Source: Thermoanaerobaculales bacterium (lineage in GTDB: Bacteria; Acidobacteriota; Thermoanaerobaculia; Thermoanaerobaculales; Sulfomarinibacteraceae). Taken from it: DNA of 37,053 bases. The stretch spans positions 1-37,053 of the forward strand of contig JALOKS010000006.1 of NCBI GenBank assembly GCA_025456385.1, written 5' to 3'. The position numbers were made by a program, and so were the translations under genes. Numbering within the stretch: the stretch's first letter is position 1; each line of letters opens with the position of its first letter. Positions 25,879-27,609 of the stretch are shown here, piece after piece. The notes under the pieces were generated by a model. It searched no databases and was not told the DNA's origin. It saw only the letters and a list, made by a program, of their open reading frames with translations.

Positions 25879-27609
25879 ATGCTCGCCCGCGAACTGTTCC
25901 GCAGCGACCCCGAGCGCATCCGCCGCCTGCTCGAGGCGCGCCGCTCCGAGGCGCCGCTCGATCGCCTGCTCGAGGTCGATGCCGCCTGGCGCGCGGTGCT
26001 GGCCGAGGTCGAGGAGCTGAAGGCGCGGCGCAACGCGGGCTCGAAGGCGATCGGCGCCCTGTTCCGCGACGGCCGGCAGGCGGAGGCGGAAACCCTCAAG
26101 GCGGAGATGGCGGCGCTCGGCGGCAGGGCCAAGGATCTCGAGGAACGGGCCCGCGAGCTCGAGCAGGAGCTCGGCGCCCTCGAGCTGACGATTCCGAACC
26201 TGGTCCACTCGAGCGTCCCCGAGGGACCCGACGAGAGCGCCAACCGGGTCGAGCGGAGCTGGGGCGAGCCGCCGGCCTTCGCCTTCGAGCCCAAGGCCCA
26301 CTGGGACCTCGGGCCGGAGCTCGACATCATCGACTTCGAGCGCGCCGTGACCGTTGCCTCGAGCCGCTTCGCGGTGCTCAAGGGCCGCGGCGCGATGCTC
26401 GAGCGCGCCCTGATCTCCTACATGCTCGACCTCCACACCCGGCGCCACGGCTACACCGAGCTCATCCCCCCCTACCTCGTCAACGCCGCCGCGCTCACCG
26501 GCACCGGCCAGCTGCCGAAGTTCGCCGACGACCTCTTCCGCGTCGAGGGGCGGGACCTCTTCCTGGTGCCGACCGCCGAGGTGCCGGTCACCAACCTCCA
26601 CCGCGGCGAGATCCTGAGCGAGGACCGCCTGCCCCTCCGCTACTGCGCCTTCACGCCGATCCGGCAGCACCAGTTCCACAAGGTGGAGCTCGTCCAGCTC
26701 GCCCACCCGGAGGCCTCGTGGCAGCAGCTCGAGGAGCTCACCGGCCACGCCGAGGCCGTGCTGCAGGGCCTCGGCCTCCACTACCGGGTGGTGAGCCTGG
26801 CGAGCGGCGACCTCGGCTTCTCGGCCGCCAAGACCTACGACCTCGAGGTCTGGCTGCCGGCGATGGGCTGCTACCGCGAGATCTCGTCCTGCTCGTCCTT
26901 CACCGACTTCCAGGCGCGCCGCGCGCAGCTCCGCTTCCGCCCCGCCGACGGCGGAAAAGCCCGCCTCCTCCACACGCTGAACGGCTCCGCGCTCGCCGTC
27001 GGCCGCACCATGGTGGCGGTCCTCGAGTGCTACCAGCGGGCCGACGGCTCGGTGGTCGTGCCCGAGGCGCTCCGCCCCTACATGCACGGCCTCGAGGTCA
27101 TCGAGCCCGGCGACCTTGAGCTTCTTCTTCACCGAGCCGACCTCGACGGCCGCGATCGAGCGGTCGGGCCGCACCAGCGCAGCGGCGGTCAGGAAGCCCA
27201 CCAGCTCGTCCACCGCGAACAGCGCCCTCGCCGCCAGGGTGTCGCGCGGCACGCCCATGTACTCGGCGTGCGAGGCGATGACCCGCACCCAATCCGCGGG
27301 CCAGCCGCGCTCGGCGAGGATCCGCGTGCCGACGTGGAGGTGGGTTTCGGCGGTCGGGTTCTGCTGGTAATCGAAGTCGTGGACGAGGCCGATCGCGCCC
27401 CAGCTCTCCTCGTCCTCCCCGAAGCGGCGGGCGTAGGCGCGCATCGCCGCCTCCACGCCGAGGCCGTGCTTGAGCAGGCTCGGGTTGTCCGTGAACTCGG
27501 TCAGCAGGGTCCAGGCATCCTCGCGGCTCGGCGTCTCCGGCATGGCGACCTCCCTTCGCGAAGTATAGCGAGCGCGGACCCTGCACCCAGCGCACCGGAA
27601 GACCGCTGA
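25879..27609 (+). CDS. serS: Seryl-tRNA synthetase missing motif 2 and its natural stop
   Basis: SerS charges tRNA-Ser. The coiled-coil arm (residues 1-110), motif 1 region, the TAEVP serine pocket, the GSALAVGRT motif 3 and the ending [15 protein letters not shown] are all clear. But RYCAFTP runs directly into [12 protein letters not shown] at residues 260/261. Relatives have about 16 residues there, CFRSEAG..GRDTRGL, which carry motif 2 with the ATP-binding Arg. The recognisable enzyme ends near residue 411 (about 27112). The frame continues 165 codons antisense to the HD gene with no family similarity. GGAGG precedes the ATG. It may be a damaged gene or an assembly error. Confidence 0.85.
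27115..27543 (-). CDS. HD-domain (HDIG-type) hydrolase, 3' end missing
   Basis: The first 143 residues are a clear HD-domain protein: [39 protein letters not shown] with the HD metal pair, SHAEYMG, and [17 protein letters not shown] followed by VGSVKKKLK. Relatives continue about 40-50 residues. Here the frame instead runs into the antisense of serS without a stop for 3.3 kb, down to 24211. I list only the supported part. GGAGGT precedes the ATG and TATACT (27562-27567, minus strand) may be its -10 box. The family often degrades nucleotides; the substrate is unknown. Confidence 0.75.

Follow-up and report, generated by a model that had tools for sequence, protein, structure and literature searches.

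The serS gene in this stretch of DNA raises the question of whether a bacterium can live with a SerRS from which part of a catalytic motif is missing, or whether the gap in the gene was never present in the organism. The window, i.e. the whole stretch of 37,053 nt that was analysed, belongs to a draft genome (G000) of 3.33 Mb, which is divided between 482 contigs and is 86% complete and 1.6% contaminated. The window also contains, at 16317-16638, a pair of tRNA-Ser genes with the anticodons CGA and GGA, after which comes a small SRP RNA gene.

The gap within serS and the end of the gene

The part of serS that matches its relatives extends over 25879..27114 on the + strand and lacks its own stop codon. 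Three profiles recognise it: in a profile search it scores 458.8 bits with TIGR00414, for which the cut-off is 301.65, while PF02403, the N-terminal tRNA-binding coiled coil, covers residues 1-109 and PF00587, the class II catalytic core, residues 224-384. The encoded protein is 75-78% identical in amino acid sequence to those of the congeners. The N-terminal tRNA-binding domain is intact, as are motifs 1 and 3, and alignment with relatives confirms the presence of the motif 3 arginine (G...GRT).

The original prediction held that about 16 residues are absent after RYCAFTP with the frame intact, and suggested a 48-nt insertion as a test of whether the family pattern would be restored. A loss of this size is borne out by a codon alignment with 28 relatives, drawn from the genus (G001-G004), the family and the order. 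The letters of the window at the junction (26658..26659, + strand) read CGC TAC TGC GCC TTC ACG CCG / ATC CGG CAG CAC CAG, with an unbroken frame, and relatives align with exactly 16 further codons, CFRAEAGSYGKDVRGL, at this point. These codons are kept by every one of the 28 serS genes read at the junction, four congeners among them; relatives naturally lacking the block were looked for in this set, and none was found.

In the relatives the protein encoded by the block follows the pattern CFR[AS]EAGS[YH]G[KR]DVRGL. The lost part comprises the first motif 2 strand, FRxE, which carries the arginine of the motif, together with the motif 2 loop. The further claim that motif 2 as a whole is absent is hence only partly correct, because the second strand, HQFHKVE (26659..26694, + strand), is still present, as indicated by alignment and by the SerRS structure 2dq3, compared via a congener. 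The missing block is found in both of the solved SerRS structures to which the gene was aligned through a congener, 2dq3 and 6x94, and the window SerS is without the FRxE strand and loop expected of a bacterial SerRS. The GC content and predicted folding of the 48-nt block are not extreme within serS, and no clear repeats flank it.

In class II synthetases the motif 2 arginine and loop contact ATP. It is extremely unlikely that the deletion is real and has left a shortened SerRS that can dispense with this arginine and loop, or else a protein derived from SerRS that has taken on a different role. The open frame and the intact motif 1, motif 3 and N-terminal domain are what such an enzyme would be expected to display, but the gap is common to no relative, the lost residues are among those established as ATP contacts, and the products of both tRNA-Ser genes of the window still require charging. 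Nor would an adaptation of SerRS explain the loss of the catalytic tyrosine from gyrA in the same assembly, described below.

The sequence on both sides of the gap had been described as ordinary, which does not hold at the 3' end of the gene. At around 27106-27115 serS, without a stop codon of its own, continues into an HD-domain gene that is truncated and is read there in antisense. This second junction (27106..27117, not assigned to a strand) is located approximately 450 nt downstream of the 48-nt junction, and the stop codon, the intergenic DNA and the C-terminus of the HD protein are all missing from it. The HD gene (27115..27543, - strand; PF01966) is convergent with serS and is without its conserved C-terminal part of approximately 48 codons; the loss point is between KKKLK and DKAFARGVNRDDV, with everything after KKKLK gone. 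In G001, G002, G004 and G006, the serS stop codon is followed by a spacer and then by a convergent HD gene with the C-terminus KKKLKDKAFARGVNRDDV, and the window is 241-320 nt shorter than these four genomes across the region.

Copy number, locus and selection

A search of the draft genome, 86% complete, for a second serS returned one match only, so the gene in the window is the sole copy in the assembly. The missing block was not found elsewhere in the assembly either: a block-bearing query from relatives matched only the two halves flanking the gap in the window. Each congener has a single full SerS, with extra matches limited to weak similarity (approximately 30%) to another synthetase-like gene.

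The gene order, consisting of a deoxynucleoside kinase gene (dnk), serS, the HD gene and glnA, is the same as that in the congeners, and serS is, as judged from this arrangement, at its ancestral locus. Between the deoxynucleoside kinase gene and serS, the spacer (25861-25878) falls 67-142 nt short of its length in five relatives, which possibly reflects one more lost piece. Over the codons shared with six relatives, the window serS has a dN of 0.16-0.19 against a dS of 0.56-0.90. At sites that are invariant in the other genomes it changes 14 of 252, the corresponding figure for the relatives being 5-16 of approximately 270. Outside the gap, purifying selection acts on serS, and the gene evolves at a rate like that of the congeners.

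These data bear on the proposal that the deletion is real and serS a dead or dying copy, with an intact second SerRS encoded in the approximately 14% of the genome that was not recovered. A draft of this completeness could hide such a gene. Nevertheless, a dying copy would not be expected to retain the conserved neighbourhood of dnk, HD gene and glnA, nor a dN so far below dS with no more changes at invariant sites than are found in congeners, and the congeners themselves have one full SerS each. As it would also leave the losses from gyrA, folD, the histidine kinase and the HD gene unexplained, this proposal is considered very improbable.

Conserved blocks missing from other genes

Two further losses are found in the same contig. 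In folD (4512..3682, - strand), alignment with relatives reveals a 96-nt in-frame deletion with its junction at 3780..3790; the 32 absent codons are kept by eight of eight relatives. In a gene for a cache-domain histidine kinase (34484-36098), comparison with G003, G006 and G014 identifies a 137-nt deletion (junction 35074..35091, + strand) that splits the gene into two frames, such that PF02743 stops at position 162 of 240 while PF00512 and PF02518 fall in the second frame. As a control, the same region was compared between G014 and G004 and between G014 and G002, and only small indels in variable stretches were detected.

Some differences within the window are of another kind. The dxr gene is located between cdsA and rseP in G001, G002, G004 and G006, and is absent from that position in the window (11022-11127), G003 and G014, which looks like natural variation in gene content. 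An intergenic tandem GAATTCGG repeat is present at 2923-2963, and near-identical short copies of it occur at many places in congener genomes.

Losses were also identified in two other contigs. The gyrA gene of contig C38 (16676-19042) has lost 78 nt, or 26 codons, at 16987/16988. The missing block, (I/T)LVDGQGNFGSVDGDS(P/A)AAMRYTE(V/I)R, is kept by relatives and carries the catalytic tyrosine; elsewhere the protein is 78% identical to that of a congener over 815 residues, and gyrases of known structure match it in two stretches, one on each side of the gap. A search of the assembly turned up no intact gyrA, and the sole other match is a paralogue of 38% identity. Relative to G014, a frameshifting loss of approximately 80 nt affects a CoA-disulfide-reductase-like gene of contig C56, near position 9990. 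Alignment of approximately 177 kb of further coding sequence from this genome, a figure that includes partly overlapping comparisons, revealed no other clear losses.

Conserved blocks are accordingly missing at no fewer than six places in three contigs, two of them in the essential genes serS and gyrA, and close relatives keep all the blocks lost from this draft genome. For the organism to be as assembled, a living bacterium would have to depend on a sole SerRS without the motif 2 arginine and loop, its function restored in some other way, and its lineage would have to tolerate, in addition, a GyrA that has lost the catalytic-tyrosine block; this is scarcely credible.

Origin of the losses and comparison with known systems

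As one cell cannot be without both a working SerRS and a working gyrase, the most parsimonious conclusion is an assembly error, which is supported by the occurrence of similar losses at six or more places in three contigs, essential genes included. It is very probable, indeed almost certain, that the 48-nt gap is absent from the organism's chromosome and was introduced in the making of the draft genome, and the other losses are probably errors of the same kind. Among the three explanations that the original prediction had offered for serS, an assembly error has much the strongest support, from this spread of losses, while a decaying extra copy is disfavoured and an unusual enzyme is unsupported.

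Incorrect genes arising from local misassembly and scaffolding joins are a recognised problem in MAGs (PMC7111523). If the gap is an artefact, a plausible and somewhat favoured route is that the ends of two assembled pieces, with an unsequenced or unresolved stretch between them, were fused and no Ns were left to mark the gap. Joins of this kind would also account for the blocks of approximately 50-300 nt that are missing from no fewer than five further conserved genes or gene ends in the three contigs, and the real organism would carry an ordinary SerRS with a complete motif 2.

Three observations fit less readily with such joins. Three of the five losses within genes are in frame (48, 78 and 96 nt), including both of those in essential genes; random joins would give a pattern of this type approximately one time in five, and the excess is compatible with chance. 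The losses are unevenly spread: the 37-kb window has four, and the approximately 177 kb of coding sequence aligned elsewhere has two. Furthermore, no short runs of Ns were found at joins in the contigs of this genome.

Other routes to the loss of these blocks were also considered. Cellular causes such as slippage during replication or deletion of a hairpin are disfavoured because the blocks are not exceptional in GC content or folding and have no clear flanking repeats; a deletion driven by hairpins or GC content was likewise rejected, the blocks not being extreme within their own genes. A dropping of only the most conserved DNA, through k-mers shared with co-occurring genomes, was tried as an explanation and rejected, as folD and the kinase do not fit it. 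In the ranking by shared k-mers, the gyrA block is in the top 1.6% of windows, and that of serS stands out weakly, in the top 14%. Template jumping during amplification or library preparation could have deleted the blocks before sequencing, and the joins are abrupt and, judging from the relatives, have overlaps too short for a k-mer graph. However, other stretches of the affected genes are more structured or richer in GC than the deleted blocks, and at normal depth a jump should be outnumbered by independent molecules, so this experimental origin is highly unlikely.

An error of assembly also carries a warning, namely that a public draft genome holds clean deletions in essential genes, without Ns and often in frame. 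These pass gene-family cut-offs, as serS still does by a wide margin, and could mimic the loss of a catalytic motif. Claims of gene loss or of drug targets made from this assembly need checking against the reads.

The losses resemble the assembly and scaffolding errors described for MAGs (PMC7111523) in producing wrong protein-coding sequences at the joins of pieces, several per genome. They differ from those errors in being clean deletions without Ns. Set beside bacterial SerRS (TIGR00414; 2dq3 and 6x94), the window SerS is alike over its whole length, in its N-terminal coiled coil, in motifs 1 and 3 and the second strand of motif 2, in its locus and in its level of identity to the congeners. 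It departs from these structures and from its relatives in lacking the 16 residues that form the first strand and the loop of motif 2, and from bacterial serS in lacking its own stop codon. The gap is most likely not a real biological feature, and the deletion should not count as evidence for a SerRS without motif 2.
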